Shown here one piece after another: positions 2,239-60,486 of a stretch of 64,000 bases of DNA. The position numbers were made by a program, and so were the translations under genes. Source of the DNA: a virus; IMG/VR virus record IMGVR_UViG_3300049793_000366, positions 372,865 to 436,864 of that record. One strand, written 5' to 3'. How positions within the stretch are numbered: the first letter of the stretch is position 1; every line of letters begins with the position of its first letter. The notes under the pieces were generated by a model, which saw only the letters and a list, made by a program, of their open reading frames with translations, was not told the DNA's origin and made no database searches.

Positions 2239-3582
2239 ATGAAGTGGCTTAAAGAAAGAGATAAATTTAGTATGAACGAATCAGTCGTGGTAAAACACAA
2301 CATACCAACATATGATGAGTGCGTTGAAATGTGCGCTCAGGAATCACCATGTTTCTATGAGACTAAGCTGGTTTTAGATGGATATAATATATCTGTCTTT
2401 AACTATCGTCTTGCTATGTATAGCGATTTCGTTAAACCAATCGCAGATAAGCCACAAATCAAAGCATATGAAATGAGAGGATTAACTTTCGTCTTCAATG
2501 AAGATGGAACAATCTTTAATCGTTTCCTTTTACTTGAGAAGTTCTTTAACTTAAATCAAGTTCCAGAGTCTATGTATTCTATTGTTAAGAACTACAAAAT
2601 AAAGTATGTTAATAACAAAGAAGATGGTTCTATTGCTTCATTTATCAAATTACCGAATGGTAAAATATACGGTAAGTCAAAGATGTCATTTGATAATGAC
2701 CAAGCTGATGGTATCAACAGAGTTTACAAAACTAATAAGCAAATCAAATCACTTGTTGATTGGTGCTTAGATAACGATATCGCGCCTATTTTTGAATATG
2801 TTGCACCACATAATAGAATAGTTCTTAGATACACAACTGAGGACTTAATATTATTGCGTCTAAGAGACAATAAGACTGGTAGGCACATTGACTTAAAGGA
2901 TCATTTAGATAAGATTGGTGAGATTAAAATCGCACCATTTGAAGATGATTTCGATGGTCTTGACCACCTAATTGAATTAGTTGCAAAGCAAACTGATAAA
3001 GAGGGTTGTATTGTACAAGCTGTTGACGAAAATGGTCACGACTTCTTATTTAAGCTTAAAACACCATGGTATTGTGAGAGACACGGTTTATTGACTGAGG
3101 ACTTATACCGTGAGCATATTATTATTGGTTATATCTTACAAGACAAAATTGATGATATTCTTGGACAAATCCCAGAAGAAGAGAAAGAGGCGCACGAAAG
3201 AATCAATAAAATCATCAAGATAGCCAAAAAAGCTATTGCTGATAAAGAAGCTGAAATACTTGGTTTCTATCAAGTTTATTTAGATATGAATGATAGAAAA
3301 GCATTTGCATTAAAGTATCACAGACACCCGTTATTTGCTATGACTATGGCTTATGTTAAAGGTGTATATATGAAAACTCTTTCAAAAGAAGAGATTGCTG
3401 AAATGTACGAAGGTGACTTTGACCGTTTCGCTATGATTCTTAATCAGTGCGAATCATATGAAATAGCTAAAGAATGGCTTAGAGAACAAACTAAGTGGTT
3501 GATGATGGCAAGAGATTGGCTTCAAGACAAAGACCCTACTTTATTTTTCATAGATCCTATCGAAAGTGATGAAGATAACTAA
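2239..3582 (+). CDS. rnlA: RNA ligase, T4 Rnl1 (RnlA) family
   Basis: The protein is 447 aa with the nucleotidyltransferase motif I KEDGS (K127 as the predicted AMP-accepting lysine), EMRGLTFVF upstream as in Rnl1 proteins, and a downstream EGCIVQ/FLFKLKT region corresponding to motifs IV-V. Rnl1 ligases seal RNA ends, classically repairing anticodon loops cut by host anticodon nucleases. That role suits a phage with dozens of tRNA genes. The promoter -7 element ends 5 nt before the first ATG, so either the mRNA is leaderless or the real start is Met12 at 2272. An intrinsic terminator overlaps the stop codon. Confidence 0.85.
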   Translation: MKWLKERDKFSMNESVVVKHNIPTYDECVEMCAQESPCFYETKLVLDGYNISVFNYRLAMYSDFVKPIADKPQIKAYEMRGLTFVFNEDGTIFNRFLLLEKFFNLNQVPESMYSIVKNYKIKYVNNKEDGSIASFIKLPNGKIYGKSKMSFDNDQADGINRVYKTNKQIKSLVDWCLDNDIAPIFEYVAPHNRIVLRYTTEDLILLRLRDNKTGRHIDLKDHLDKIGEIKIAPFEDDFDGLDHLIELVAKQTDKEGCIVQAVDENGHDFLFKLKTPWYCERHGLLTEDLYREHIIIGYILQDKIDDILGQIPEEEKEAHERINKIIKIAKKAIADKEAEILGFYQVYLDMNDRKAFALKYHRHPLFAMTMAYVKGVYMKTLSKEEIAEMYEGDFDRFAMILNQCESYEIAKEWLREQTKWLMMARDWLQDKDPTLFFIDPIESDEDN

Positions 3583-12543: not shown

Positions 12544-12584
12544 ATTCTATATATATTAATAAAACTTGGCTTAAAAACCAGAAA

Positions 12585-12616
12585 TTTGGATTATATGAAT
12601 TTAATCCGTATATTTG
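12585..12616 (+). promoter_or_regulatory. Promoter of RNase P RNA
   Basis: TTTGG (12585-12589) and TATATTTG (12609-12616). The expected start, 4-6 nt downstream, coincides with the first base of helix P1 of the RNA at 12621. Confidence 0.75.
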
Positions 12617-12620
12617 TTAT

Positions 12621-12836
12621 GTTAAATTATGATAGACCGAAGGACGCATAGCACTACGGTGAGGAAGTTCAACACACCGACCTTCATGTAGGAGACCTAA
12701 TCAGTCGCTTTGACTACACGGTGAAACTCAAAACAGGTTAGCGCAAGACAGGTCGCAATGATACCGAGGTGGAGGACAATAGACAAATTATGTGATAAAA
12801 CAAAAAGTTGACTACACTTGGTTTATCAGATTTAAC
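12621..12836 (+). ncRNA. rnpB: RNase P RNA, highly reduced
   Basis: The 216-nt RNA can be folded as a minimal RNase P RNA. P1 pairs GTTAAAT (12621) with ATTTAAC (12830-12836), extended by TGATA/TATCA and ACC/GGT. P2 pairs CGCATAG with TTATGTG. P3 is a 3-bp stem closed by a TACG loop. Conserved region I reads GAGGAAGTTCAAC. P4 pairs AG-T-TCAAC with GTTGA-CT and keeps the universal bulged U, and the preceding ACAAAAA matches ACAGAAN. P5 pairs CACCG with CGGTG, followed by GAAACTC and GCGCAAGAC, which match the GGUAAACUC/GAGCAAG core. It lacks most peripheral helices of bacterial versions (about 350-400 nt). Its job would be 5' maturation of the many phage tRNAs. Confidence 0.82.
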
Positions 12837-12858
12837 TTAACATTTAAAACAAAAAAGA

Positions 12859-13272
12859 ATGACATTAAAAGAGAAAATTGCCCAGGACTACATCGTTGCT
12901 TTTAAAGCAAGAGAGCCAAAGAAGAATACTTTAGGCTTCATTAAATCGGCTATCGATACTGCTGAGAAAAATGGTGGTAAATCAACAGATGAAGAAGTAC
13001 TTGAAATCTTAATTAAGATGGAGAAAAACTTGAAAGATGTTTTAGTGAATGAAGCTAAAGCTGGTGTATCATCTGATGCTACAAATGCTGAGATTGAAGT
13101 AATTCAATCTTATTTGCCTAAGAAATTATCAGAAGATGAAATCAAGGCAGAAATTCAAAATGCTATCAATGGTGGTGCTAATAACATTGGTGCTATTATG
13201 GCTTTGTTTAAAGACAAACCAGTAGATAGAAAAGTAGTTTCAACTATTGCTAATTCAATGCTTGCTAAATAA
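12859..13272 (+). CDS. yqeY: YqeY/GatB C-terminal-like domain protein
   Basis: The 137-aa product matches the YqeY family over its whole length: MTLKEKIAQDYIVAFKAREP, VEVIQSYLPKKLSEDEI-type centre (EIEVIQSYLPKKLSEDEIKA) and the end block IGAIMALFKDKPVDRKVVST. The fold is the tRNA-binding tail domain of GatB. It starts 22 nt after the RNase P RNA, so both may share a transcript. A tRNA-linked role is suggested by the family and by this neighbour, but the biochemical function of stand-alone YqeY is not known. Confidence 0.88.
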   Translation: MTLKEKIAQDYIVAFKAREPKKNTLGFIKSAIDTAEKNGGKSTDEEVLEILIKMEKNLKDVLVNEAKAGVSSDATNAEIEVIQSYLPKKLSEDEIKAEIQNAINGGANNIGAIMALFKDKPVDRKVVSTIANSMLAK

Positions 13273-23830: not shown

Positions 23831-25360
23831 ATGAAAACGAAATACACACCCGAAATTGAAAATGAAATCAACCAAGAATGGTTAGAAAATAAAACATACA
23901 AATCAACACCTGATGAGAGAGAAGCATTCACTATCATCATGCCACCACCAAACATCACTGGTATACTTCACCTTGGACACATCTTGAATAACACAATACA
24001 AGATATTTTCATTAGAAGAAAGAAACAACTTGGTTACAACACTTGTTGGATTCCTGGTATCGACCATGCTTCAATCGCAACAGAAGCTAAAATCATTCAC
24101 TGGTTGAAAGAACAGAACATCGAGAAGAATGATCTGACTAAAGAACAATTTCTTGAGTATGCTTGGCAATGGAAAGATAAATATGGTAACATAATCATCG
24201 ACCAACTTAAACGATGTGGCTTTGCTTGTGATTGGGATAGACTTACATTCACAATGGATAAACATCACTCTGATAGAATCTATGAAATGTATGACAGACT
24301 TAAAGCTGGCAACATCATATATCGCGGTACTAAAACAATGGCTTATGACCCATTAGCTAAAACATACTTATCAGACTCGGAAACGTTTGAGAAGAATGGT
24401 AAACTATTCTCTGAGAGAACAGGCGCTAAGATTGAAATGAAAGACACTGAGCAGATATTTATCGATATGAATAAGATTGCTCAACCCGCACTTGATAGTA
24501 TCGGAGAACGCATTAAAATGATTCCTGATACAGCATTCCCATCTTATAAGAATTGGTTTGATAACTTACAAGATTGGTGTATCTCAAGACAGTTAACATG
24601 GGGTCACTCTATACCAGATGATGAAGGAACTTTTGATACTTGGTTCTCTTCTTGGTTATGTGCTATCACAGCATTTAAATCACAAGAAGAAATAGATTAC
24701 TATATGCCATCAGACTTCATCATTACTGGTCAAGACATCGCTTTCTTTTGGATTGCTAAGATGATAATGGCGAATGATTACTGGGATAAATCTATACCGT
24801 TTCATAACATCTACTTCACTGGTATTATGAGAGATAAAGACGGTAAGAAGTTTGCGAAGCAGTTTAATAATTCACCAGACATTATGAATTTGATGGAAGA
24901 GCATGGCGCTGACTCATTGCGATTCTCAACTATCATTAACCATCACGCTGGTATGGATTCTAAATGGACTATGGATCAATTGTTACAGGGTAAAAGATTC
25001 TGTAATAAGATTTGGAATATCAACAAGCTAATGTCTTCGTGGCAACCATCTGATATAGAAATGTCAGACAAACAAAGAGAATCATTGAATACTTGGAAGA
25101 TGCAGTTTGCTTCTGCTAAGAATAGCTACAAGCAACTATTTGATGATGAGCTTAGATTCTCAGAAGCTTTGATATTAACCTACAATCTTATTTGGGAAGA
25201 CTTTTCATCTGGGTTACTTGAAGCCATAAAGCCTGAACAGGGCATTTGGCCAAATTTAAACCGTGAGCTGTATGATTGTTTAATGAGTGATTTCAGAGAA
25301 TTGATGCTAATGTTGGAGCCATTTATGCCATTCATAAGCAATTATATGTTGAATAAGTAA
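23831..25360 (+). CDS. valS: Valyl-tRNA synthetase, compact, editing domain deleted
   Basis: Class I ValRS signatures: MPPPNITGILHLGHILNNTI (HIGH as HLGH, H47-H50), CWIPGIDHASIATEAKI, FDTWFSSWLCAITAF, and KFAKQF replacing KMSKS. Only 509 aa, against about 880-950 in bacteria. The CP1 editing domain is reduced to a short linker between the two Rossmann halves, and the C-terminal coiled-coil arm is absent. Misacylation with Thr would not be corrected in cis. Its leader peptide is Val-rich. Confidence 0.9.
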   Translation: MKTKYTPEIENEINQEWLENKTYKSTPDEREAFTIIMPPPNITGILHLGHILNNTIQDIFIRRKKQLGYNTCWIPGIDHASIATEAKIIHWLKEQNIEKNDLTKEQFLEYAWQWKDKYGNIIIDQLKRCGFACDWDRLTFTMDKHHSDRIYEMYDRLKAGNIIYRGTKTMAYDPLAKTYLSDSETFEKNGKLFSERTGAKIEMKDTEQIFIDMNKIAQPALDSIGERIKMIPDTAFPSYKNWFDNLQDWCISRQLTWGHSIPDDEGTFDTWFSSWLCAITAFKSQEEIDYYMPSDFIITGQDIAFFWIAKMIMANDYWDKSIPFHNIYFTGIMRDKDGKKFAKQFNNSPDIMNLMEEHGADSLRFSTIINHHAGMDSKWTMDQLLQGKRFCNKIWNINKLMSSWQPSDIEMSDKQRESLNTWKMQFASAKNSYKQLFDDELRFSEALILTYNLIWEDFSSGLLEAIKPEQGIWPNLNRELYDCLMSDFRELMLMLEPFMPFISNYMLNK

Positions 25361-34833: not shown

Positions 34834-34907
34834 TGAGGGGTAGCTCAGTGGTAAGAGCGCCGGGACGGAAAACCCGGAGGTCGTTGGTTCGAATCTAACC
34901 CCCTCTA
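34834..34907 (+). tRNA. tRNA, probably Phe (GAA), 8-nt anticodon loop
   Basis: Stem CCGGG/CCCGG encloses ACGGAAAA, eight nt instead of seven. The best reading is GAA in the context CG-GAA-AA, with no U33. The first acceptor pair is T-T. Confidence 0.5.
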
Positions 34908-34915
34908 CAAAGAAT

Positions 34916-42352: not shown

Positions 42353-42988
42353 ATGGAAATTAAATTAGAATCAACTTACAAAGGAACAAGAATACTATTC
42401 GCTGAAACTGCGAAAACAAAAAGAACAATCATTAACAAGATGATTGAAATACTTGAATCATATGGCTATCAAGAAATGATGATACCAATTATTCAAAAGC
42501 AAGATACTTTTAAATCTAAAGTAGGTGCTGAAAACCAAAAGATGATGTACACCTTCAAAGATATGGGTGACAGAGATTTGTGTTTAGCACCAGAGTATAC
42601 CGCGGTTATTCAACAACTTGCTAAAGAAAAGTTTAAATTCAACAAAGATGTTAAGCTATTTTATGTAGCTGAGTGTTTCAGAGGTGAGAACACACAAGCT
42701 GGTCGATTTAGACAGTTCACTCAATTTGGTGTTGAGGTGATAAACCCAAGAGAAGACTACTCTGATGAAATGTTAGAGATAGCAAAAAAGTTAATTGAAA
42801 TATGTACTGATAACTATGAAGTGAATACTGACGCGACCAGAGGCTTAGACTACTATAAAGGTGGTAAGGGCTTCGAGATTGGTTGCCCAGAGTTGGGATC
42901 CTCTAAGCAAGTATGTGGTGGTGGTTCTTATGAAGGTGGTATCGGATTCGCTATCGGTGTTGACCGAATACTAATACTTAAAAAATAA
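42353..42988 (+). CDS. hisS: Histidyl-tRNA synthetase, minimal catalytic core
   Basis: 211 aa, about half the bacterial length. Core motifs are all present: GYQEMMIPIIQKQDTFKSKV (motif 1), FYVAECFRGENTQAGRFRQF then TQFGVEVI (motif 2), the His-specific ATRGLDYYKGG, and EGGIGFAIGVDRILIL (motif 3). The insertion domain and the C-terminal anticodon-binding domain are missing. tRNA recognition may rely on the acceptor G-1:C73 pair, which His tRNAs of this phage keep. Confidence 0.88.
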   Translation: MEIKLESTYKGTRILFAETAKTKRTIINKMIEILESYGYQEMMIPIIQKQDTFKSKVGAENQKMMYTFKDMGDRDLCLAPEYTAVIQQLAKEKFKFNKDVKLFYVAECFRGENTQAGRFRQFTQFGVEVINPREDYSDEMLEIAKKLIEICTDNYEVNTDATRGLDYYKGGKGFEIGCPELGSSKQVCGGGSYEGGIGFAIGVDRILILKK

Positions 42989-50034: not shown

Positions 50035-50904
50035 AAATACAGAAAAAAGGAGGACCCAGGCTGTGGACGCAATTTAATAATAAACGAATACGAATCTTTT
50101 TGTAAGAGTAGAGGAATACACTTTCAATTAGACGATAAAGTTAACCCTTATGACGAAACAACTTTATTTTGTCCTGCTGGAATGCAGCAGTTCAAATCTA
50201 AGTTTAAGGGTGATGAGATTGGAACATTAAGTAATGTACAATCTTGTATTAGACTTAATGATATTGATGAGATTGGTGATGGAACTCACCTCTTATATTT
50301 TAATATGATTGGTCTATTTTCGTTTAGAGAGCTTACAGTTAAACAATCAATTGATTTTTGGCTTGAGTTTTTAAACAGACTGGGACTTAAACCAGATTAC
50401 ATCACGATTCATCCCGATAAAATGGATGAATGGTCAATCTTCTATAAAGAGTATGATGTAGAGATTAAACCTGATACTGAATGTATTTGGAGTGATGGTG
50501 AGATTGGTGGTTACTGTACTGAATTCTACATAGACGGTGTTGAGATTGGTAACATAGTTAATCCTCTCGGTACTTGTATAGATGTTGGATTTGGATTAGA
50601 ACGATTACAGATGTTCACTGAACAAAGAACACACGACAACAAGGATAGTATTTTAATAGAAACAATTAACAAAATAATTCAAAGTGGATATGAACCATCA
50701 AATATTAAACAAGGGTATGTATTACGTAAGTTATTGAGGCAGTTATATAAGAACGGTGGCTCAATGGAGCATACCTTCTATGAACAAGAGGTCAAGAGAC
50801 AACAAAAGATTCTTGAACGATACAATAAACTTAAAGATAAACATAAAGATAAACCCAAAGACTGGTGGTGGGAAACAATGGGCATTGACTTAGATTTACT
50901 TTAG
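50035..50904 (+). CDS. alaS: Alanyl-tRNA synthetase catalytic domain, no ordinary start codon
   Basis: Homology to AlaRS begins well before the first ATG at 50182: in frame, NLIINEYESFCKSRG and DETTLFCPAGMQQFKSKFKG match the AlaRS start. Then VQSCIRLNDIDEIGDG, FNMIGLFSFREL, TECIWSDGEIGGYCTEFYID and VDVGFGLERLQMF-like sequence (CIDVGFGLERLQMF). The open frame runs directly from the glyS TAA (50032-50034) without ATG, GTG or TTG before 50182. Only the catalytic part exists; tRNA-recognition, editing and C-Ala domains are absent. The translation mode is uncertain. Confidence 0.75.
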   Translation, partial: KYRKKEDPGCGRNLIINEYESFCKSRGIHFQLDDKVNPYDETTLFCPAGMQQFKSKFKGDEIGTLSNVQSCIRLNDIDEIGDGTHLLYFNMIGLFSFRELTVKQSIDFWLEFLNRLGLKPDYITIHPDKMDEWSIFYKEYDVEIKPDTECIWSDGEIGGYCTEFYIDGVEIGNIVNPLGTCIDVGFGLERLQMFTEQRTHDNKDSILIETINKIIQSGYEPSNIKQGYVLRKLLRQLYKNGGSMEHTFYEQEVKRQQKILERYNKLKDKHKDKPKDWWWETMGIDLDLL

Positions 50905-59640: not shown

Positions 59641-60405
59641 AAAATTTAAAAATATTGGGCAGTATAGTGTCCTACACAAATCTTCGGGTTTGTGTGAAAA
59701 TAAAGCTGGTAACAGTCTATAAAGCAAACGTAGAGTTTGCGACTTCTTCACGGGAGTTTAACTATAAAATACTTAGTATGTCTTTGATGGACGAATGTTC
59801 AATGAGATATCATCATCCAACTATGGTGATTGCGTCAGAAATGATTACAAGAAAGGTAGGGTATTATGTGCGAAATGTCCAAACATTAGTGCGTGTGCTA
59901 TCTGATTAAGTTATACAACGTATAGTTTATATTCGCAAGGGTATTTATTATACATGGGCGACTGAAGCAGACGTGAGCTGGAAACTCACAGAAGGGCGTT
60001 TAGTATTTTGTTCTCAAAAGGAACGAAGCTATACCACACAGGCGTCCTTCATACAAATAGTTGTTATCTAACATGATTTTGAAATATCAAAAAAGCAAAA
60101 TCTGTGTGGCGCTGGAGTCGAAAGGTCTCTAATTCCATCCGTTGCGAAACGAAGATGGAGTCTAATATCCCGCAAGGATATGGATTTAGCTAAGAAAAAT
60201 CTAGTGGGCGCAACCCTTAGTCAGTTCGCAAGACTGAATAGACAGAGTAGCAGTTGAGTAGACAAACTGGTCAAACAGTTCTAGCGATACGAGTGATTAC
60301 CGTAAGGAATCGAGACTGACAGAATACTTATCGCAAGGTGAGTGGATAATGAGAGAACCAATAATGCTCAGAAAGATTTGTCGACCAAAGCTATAATCTC
60401 AAGCT
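59641..60405 (+). ncRNA. Large structured RNA with many GNRA/UUCG hairpins (ROOL/GOLLD-like candidate)
   Basis: Strong hairpins include CACAAATC-TTCG-GGTTTGTG (about 59676), GCAAAC-gtaga-GTTTGC, GTTCTC-aaa-GGAAC, CCATCCGTT-GCGA-AACGAAGATGG, CCC-GCAA-GG, TCAGT-tcgcaag-ACTGA, TTACC-GTAA-GGAA and TAT-CGCAAG-GTGA. A TATGG...CTAAG pair near 60180 resembles an 11-nt tetraloop receptor. It lies between tRNA genes, as ROOL and GOLLD RNAs do in phages. Family assignment is a guess. Confidence 0.5.
59778..59909 (+). CDS. Possible 43-aa protein embedded in the RNA region
   Basis: Begins MSLMDECSMRYHHPTMVIAS. Possible paralogue of the ORF at 59466 by equal length and C-terminal similarity. No promoter or RBS evidence. 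Confidence 0.35.
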   Translation: MSLMDECSMRYHHPTMVIASEMITRKVGYYVRNVQTLVRVLSD

Positions 60406-60412
60406 TTTTTAC

Positions 60413-60486
60413 GGCGTGTTCGTCTATCGGAAGGACGCTACCCCATTTCAGGGTAGAAACGTATGGTTCGAATCCTGCACACGCTA
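60413..60486 (+). tRNA. tRNA, isotype unclear, duplicate of the 59123 tRNA
   Basis: From the D-loop to the T-loop it is nearly identical to 59123-59196 (loop CATTTCA, bulged T-stem). Acceptor differs: GGCGTGT/ACACGCT. Confidence 0.6.

Follow-up and report, generated by a model that had tools for sequence, protein, structure and literature searches.

A probable bacterial-type RNase P RNA with a minimal specificity domain in huge phages

Known RNase P RNAs and the phage family

The RNA of ribonuclease P (RNase P) is a near-universal cellular ribozyme that trims the 5' ends of tRNAs. Here, we analyzed a 64,000-nt stretch of viral DNA (the window), which covers positions 372,865 to 436,864 of the 507,910-bp virus record IMGVR_UViG_3300049793_000366, and a 216-nt element on its plus strand at window positions 12621-12836. 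By homology and comparative structure, this element is very probably a bacterial-type RNase P RNA, and we found related RNAs in other huge phages.

Class A RNase P RNA averages ~374 nt (PMC7191817), whereas the phage RNAs are mostly ~190-260 nt. The class A model RF00010 and the phage family share the order of helices P1-P7 and P15-P17, the P6 pseudoknot, the L15 GGU motif, and conserved regions (CR) I, IV, and V. The homologue at locus L113 aligned with RF00010 from one end to the other, with scores of 47.8-56.3 bits that stay under the gathering score of 100. Unlike in RF00010, P8-P14 are replaced by ~45 nt and P18 is absent. The family is thus a class A variant and not a typical member, as P8-P14, CR II, CR III, and P18 were not found. 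In the T-type archaeal RNase P RNA of Pyrobaculum, the catalytic domain is kept and the specificity domain is mostly lost (PMC7191817, PMC4919922). The phage RNAs likewise keep the catalytic domain with little specificity domain; however, the T-type RNA is archaeal and has several protein subunits, whereas the phage RNAs would go with the bacterial protein RnpA. Membership in the T-type was not indicated either by cmscan of the window interval, in which no RNase P family was matched. The archaeal model RF00373 aligned with CR I, P4, and CR V of the L014 homologue at 32.4 bits, under its gathering score of 84, but the phage RNAs have P6 and L15 as in bacteria.

In candidate phyla radiation (CPR) bacteria, diverged RNase P RNAs score below Rfam thresholds and have lost several helices, with P12 absent in some (PMC8172020). 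The phage family is also missed at Rfam thresholds and is also without several helices, but the CPR RNAs are chromosomal copies of cells, whereas those of the phages are accessory. Theta ribozymes, which occur in gut phages, are hepatitis delta virus-like self-cleaving RNAs that have been discussed in connection with tRNA 3' processing (PMC10879173). They share with the present family that they are phage-encoded and tied to phage tRNA processing; the phage RNase P RNA, in contrast, would be a trans-acting enzyme for the 5' end. No report of a viral RNase P RNA was found in those open-access papers that were searched, a scope that leaves priority uncertain, and none is mentioned in the main texts of a huge-phage survey (PMC7162821), a jumbo-phage review (PMC13282480), and a paper on the evolution of RNase P (PMC12974513). 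We consider it likely that these RNAs form a widespread, previously unrecognized class of huge-phage RNase P RNA in which the specificity domain is minimal, and that some phages encode a complete two-subunit enzyme for host-independent tRNA 5' maturation tuned to phage tRNA arrays. Such a class would extend the known translation functions of huge phages to tRNA 5' processing, and a viral version with a single bacterial protein and scarcely any specificity domain would be a natural test of the purpose of that domain.

Homology, covariation, and fold of the RNA

The original prediction, which had identified the RNA from the DNA letters, proposed a search of the interval with Rfam RNase P models. 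For the window copy itself, this gave no match with a useful score, and cmscan of the interval returned none of the RNase P models, whatever their type. The identification was instead obtained through relatives. By blastn, the window RNA shared 79.5% identity with the 642-kb phage LR756502 over 157 nt (E=7e-27), and LR756502 in turn matched L113 (E=4e-9). The LR756502 copy was recognized by RNaseP_arch (RF00373) at 32.4 bits (E=3.6e-8 genome-wide), and L113 and the locus L115 were recognized by RF00010 (E=1.3e-14 and E=3e-11, respectively), with both models below their gathering scores. At Rfam gathering scores, RNase P gave 0 matches in 15 family loci; because its scores lie under these thresholds, the family has been overlooked by standard annotation, and it is therefore searchable at once in existing data.

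Sequence patterns from the window RNA and from the copies of LR756502 and the 735-kb phage LR756501, in which P4 is swapped by compensatory changes (GUUCGCGA/UCGCGGCU), retrieved further viral copies. Two other patterns were rejected: the matches of GTGAAACTCN{5,25}GCGCAAGAC in viral contigs all resemble coding sequence, and those of GAGGAAGTTCAACAC were mostly due to chance, with one genuine homologue (L092) recognized later by model. A covariance model built from ten sequences (R1) scored the window RNA at 126.7 bits. A second model (R2), from which the window RNA and its nearest relative, LR756502, were excluded, found the window RNA in the window at 73 bits (E=3e-15; next match, E=1) and, as the best match, in the whole 508-kb record (73 bits, E=2.4e-14). 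R1 also detected a single copy (102.6 bits, E=4.7e-21) in LR745206, a 635-kb phage picked solely for its RnpA. Over 854 kb comprising 100 viral loci from chance patterns, R1 gave one significant match, which was to a genuine copy on a contig of 364 kb, and all remaining matches were at or below 16 bits.

The alignment contained 67 family matches (66 distinct sequences), nearly all from viral contigs. In the named structure, 94.4% of pair cells were paired, and two-sided changes occurred at 35 of the 39 pairs. Cells with two-sided changes numbered 612 compared with 172 in shuffles, and the covariation was 0.609, compared with 0.162 in shuffles; it fell to 0.09 or less when the partners were slid. 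P3 (94.2% of cells paired) had two-sided changes at all three pairs, P4 (98.1%) at seven of eight, and P5 (98.5%) at three of four. The bulged U of P4, whose conservation had been named as a test of the original prediction, was kept with this covariation across the 66 sequences. P6, which is absent from the alignment model, was paired in 93.9% of cells with two-sided changes at 5/5 pairs; such changes were also found in P7 (95.2%) and the specificity-domain hairpin (99.4%). For P15, P16, and P17, 94.9%, 88.6%, and 85.8% of cells were paired, and the L15 motif CGGGU or CGAGGU was present in almost every alignment row. P1 lies outside the model, and in most homologues the RNA is flanked by a long helix whose sequence is unrelated. 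The segment from P5 to P5 has a median of 45 nt (range, 39-153), compared with a far longer one in RF00010, and the estimated full length is ~190-260 nt in most copies (median, 236). These comparisons indicate that the catalytic domain (P1-P6, P15-P17, the GGU of L15, and CR I, IV, and V) is kept and that most of the specificity domain, together with P18, is lost. At L115, a complete copy and a truncated one (model positions 35-135) lie in tandem (3206-3509).

In the window copy, P1, P2, the 3-bp P3, P4 with its bulged U, and P5 are where they had been predicted. The 5' strand of P1/P2 (12621-12642) has its partner at 12817-12836. P3 (12652-12661) is CAC-UACG-GUG with a UACG loop, and forms in homologues include CUG-GAAA-CAG. 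CR I (GAGGAAG) and the 5' strand of P4 occupy 12661-12673, with P4 formed by 12666-12673 and 12807-12813 and the bulged U at 12669. P5 joins CACC (12675-12678) to GGUG (12720-12723), and the P6 pseudoknot joins ACCU (12680-12683) to AGGU (12750-12753) in L17; the helix 12679-12683/12750-12754 was first taken as P7 and was assigned to P6 on comparison with class A. The reduced specificity domain (12688-12717) consists of P7 (GUAG/CUAC, 12688-12691/12714-12717) around GAGACCUAAUCAGUCGCUUUGA with a GAC/GUC hairpin. Pairing and sequence place P15-P16-P17 at 12727-12774, in the register 12727-12729/12772-12774 for P15, 12736-12738/12763-12765 for P16, and 12741-12743/12754-12756 for P17, with the L15 GGU motif at 12768-12770. 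The 'GAAACTC..GCGCAAGAC' that had been read as one conserved region is really the J5/15 segment (GAAACUCAAAACAGG), P16, and P17. A CR IV-like AGACAAAU (12781-12788) aligns with AGAugAAUG of RF00010 and is conserved across alignment A7. CR V (ACAAAAA) and the 3' strand of P4 (GUUGACU) follow at 12800-12813, with ACARAA and the P4 partner kept family-wide. CR I, CR IV, and CR V are in the expected order and spacing, and no P18 was seen in the window copy. The lowest-energy nested fold of the window RNA differs from the RNase P fold, which is preferred because of the comparative evidence.

Several points weigh against this assignment. The window copy is among the most divergent members, escapes Rfam, and departs from the core in having GAAA for GCAA and CGAGGU for CGGGU; moreover, the E-values of the covariance models are rough because the calibration was shortened. 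Nevertheless, detection by R2, together with the compensatory changes in homologues, goes far past what chance would give and supports its identity as an RNase P RNA. As the records are mostly metagenomic, an ordinary bacterial RNase P RNA might have been placed in them by misassembly, or bacterial DNA might have been called viral. We regard this as very improbable: copies were found in contigs of up to 479 kb and in long uncultured huge-phage records of 635-735 kb (LR756501, LR756502, and LR745206), and one copy is on a record with a terminase, the gene being present on the record of the window. Among 297 Bacteroidota genomes, only one metagenome-assembled genome had a strong match, and one weak match (34 bits) was found in another of the genomes. 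In the assembly with the strong match, the short copy lies on a contig of 14 kb, separate from a normal 338-nt RNase P RNA of its own.

RnpA, tRNA arrays, and the proposed role

The phage of the window encodes a 105-aa RnpA at record positions 165889-166158. It matched PF00825 at 51.9 bits (cut-off, 22.3) and TIGR00188 at 38.0 bits, marginally below the cut-off of 38.35, and carries the RNR motif RANKRNRVKRLMR. RnpA was also present in LR756502 and LR745206, and the core RNRxKRLMR is common to all three phages, which therefore carry genes for both subunits. Searches with RnpA protein patterns gave 0 viral relatives, whereas tblastn and Pfam did reveal them. RnpA-like matches from small fecal records titled 'Bacteriophage sp.' may be bacterial fragments and were excluded. 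An AlphaFold model of RnpA from a single sequence was poor (predicted local distance difference test score of 60), and the fold search with it was uninformative.

The RNA genes are closely associated with tRNAs. tRNAs were present at 53 of the 66 family loci, and in all 53 the nearest was on the same strand; it was within 500 nt of the family gene in 34 loci and often within 30 nt. The density of tRNAs was 1.01 per kb around family genes compared with 0.008 in 100 control viral loci. The occurrence of relatives in dozens of viral contigs, usually amid tRNA genes, suggests that these viruses help finish their own tRNAs. The tie to tRNA processing drawn in the original prediction is therefore upheld by the placement of the family in tRNA arrays and by the phage-encoded RnpA. 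The count of roughly 46 tRNA genes given there was too high, since ARAGORN identified 39 tRNAs in the window and Rfam gave 38 tRNA matches.

Homology, fold, covariation, the RnpA gene, and the association with tRNA arrays are computed observations. On this basis, we take the RNA with considerable confidence for an RNase P RNA of bacterial type, which, most likely with RnpA, would cleave the 5' leaders of phage tRNA transcripts. During infection, it would pair with RnpA, here the 105-aa protein of the phage itself, and the resulting holoenzyme would remove these leaders. From these observations, we infer expression, holoenzyme assembly, catalysis, and which RNAs are the substrates.

Two observations run counter to this role. 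The tRNA nearest to the window copy lies 6 kb off. In addition, searches for RnpA were negative in LR756501 and in a further 38 records, which carry the RNA or were fetched for it and of which many are fragments. Since RnpA was not found in most records, those phages would rely on host RnpA. This need for the host protein, with the specificity domain almost gone, would also suit a decoy, that is, an RNase P-like fold that binds host RnpA and lowers host RNase P activity with no cleavage. We consider a decoy unlikely, since compensatory changes across a diverse set of sequences keep a catalytic core (CR I, P4 with its bulged U, CR IV, CR V, the L15 GGU, and P6) that should exceed the needs of protein binding alone, the RNA sits in tRNA arrays, and three phages supply their own RnpA. 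Somewhat less likely still is an active RNase P for substrates other than tRNAs, for instance phage mRNAs or GOLLD and other large structured RNAs. Loss of the domain that binds the tRNA elbow could broaden specificity, and GOLLD RNA is found in the window, L115, and L158. However, the nearest neighbors of the family are tRNAs, often within 30 nt and on the same strand, the L15 GGU motif is retained, and the GOLLD loci themselves contain or adjoin tRNAs. Cleavage of phage tRNA transcripts is thus the role that we favor.

Expression signals and genome setting

The RNA had been predicted to have its own promoter, which is plausible as a putative element at 12585-12616 on the plus strand, ending 4 nt 5' of P1. 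It consists of TTTG (12585-12588), 20 nt, and TATATTTG (12609-12616), and this TTTG-N20-TATATTTG arrangement corresponds to the Bacteroidota-type promoter consensus. TAnnTTTG occurred within 60 nt upstream in 14 of 66 homologues compared with 2.2 in shuffles (maximum of 8 in 1000 shuffles), and a hairpin with a T run was found 3' of the RNA in LR756501 and L110. The promoter and hairpin/T-run signals are suggestive only of expression. No open reading frame of at least 60 aa overlapping 12544-12858 was found. A YqeY-like gene (12859-13272, plus strand; PF09424, 65.7 bits) starts 22 nt 3' of the RNA, and its link to the system is by neighborhood only.

Genes in the window include many tRNA ligases, several of which adjoin their cognate tRNAs, initiation factor 3 (IF-3), and RNA ligases. 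Three ligase genes are short and well below the lengths of their matching profiles, namely those similar to valyl- (509 aa, 23831-25360), histidyl- (211 aa, 42353-42988), and alanyl-tRNA synthetase (240 aa, 50182-50904). In the 39 tRNA genes (18896-59197), CCA is mostly not encoded, and CAA follows the discriminator base in 28. Tandem tRNAs are often spaced merely ~4-8 nt apart, and ARAGORN assigned a four-base anticodon (ggaa) to the tRNA at 34834-34908. Immediately after the GOLLD RNA (232 bits, 59991-60486) comes a weak tRNA match absent from the ARAGORN output. The loci L115 and L158 also have GOLLD, close to their RNase P RNA. In L136, a 416-kb viral contig with the RNase P RNA, a group I intron match adjoins and partly overlaps a transfer-messenger RNA match (426-1037).
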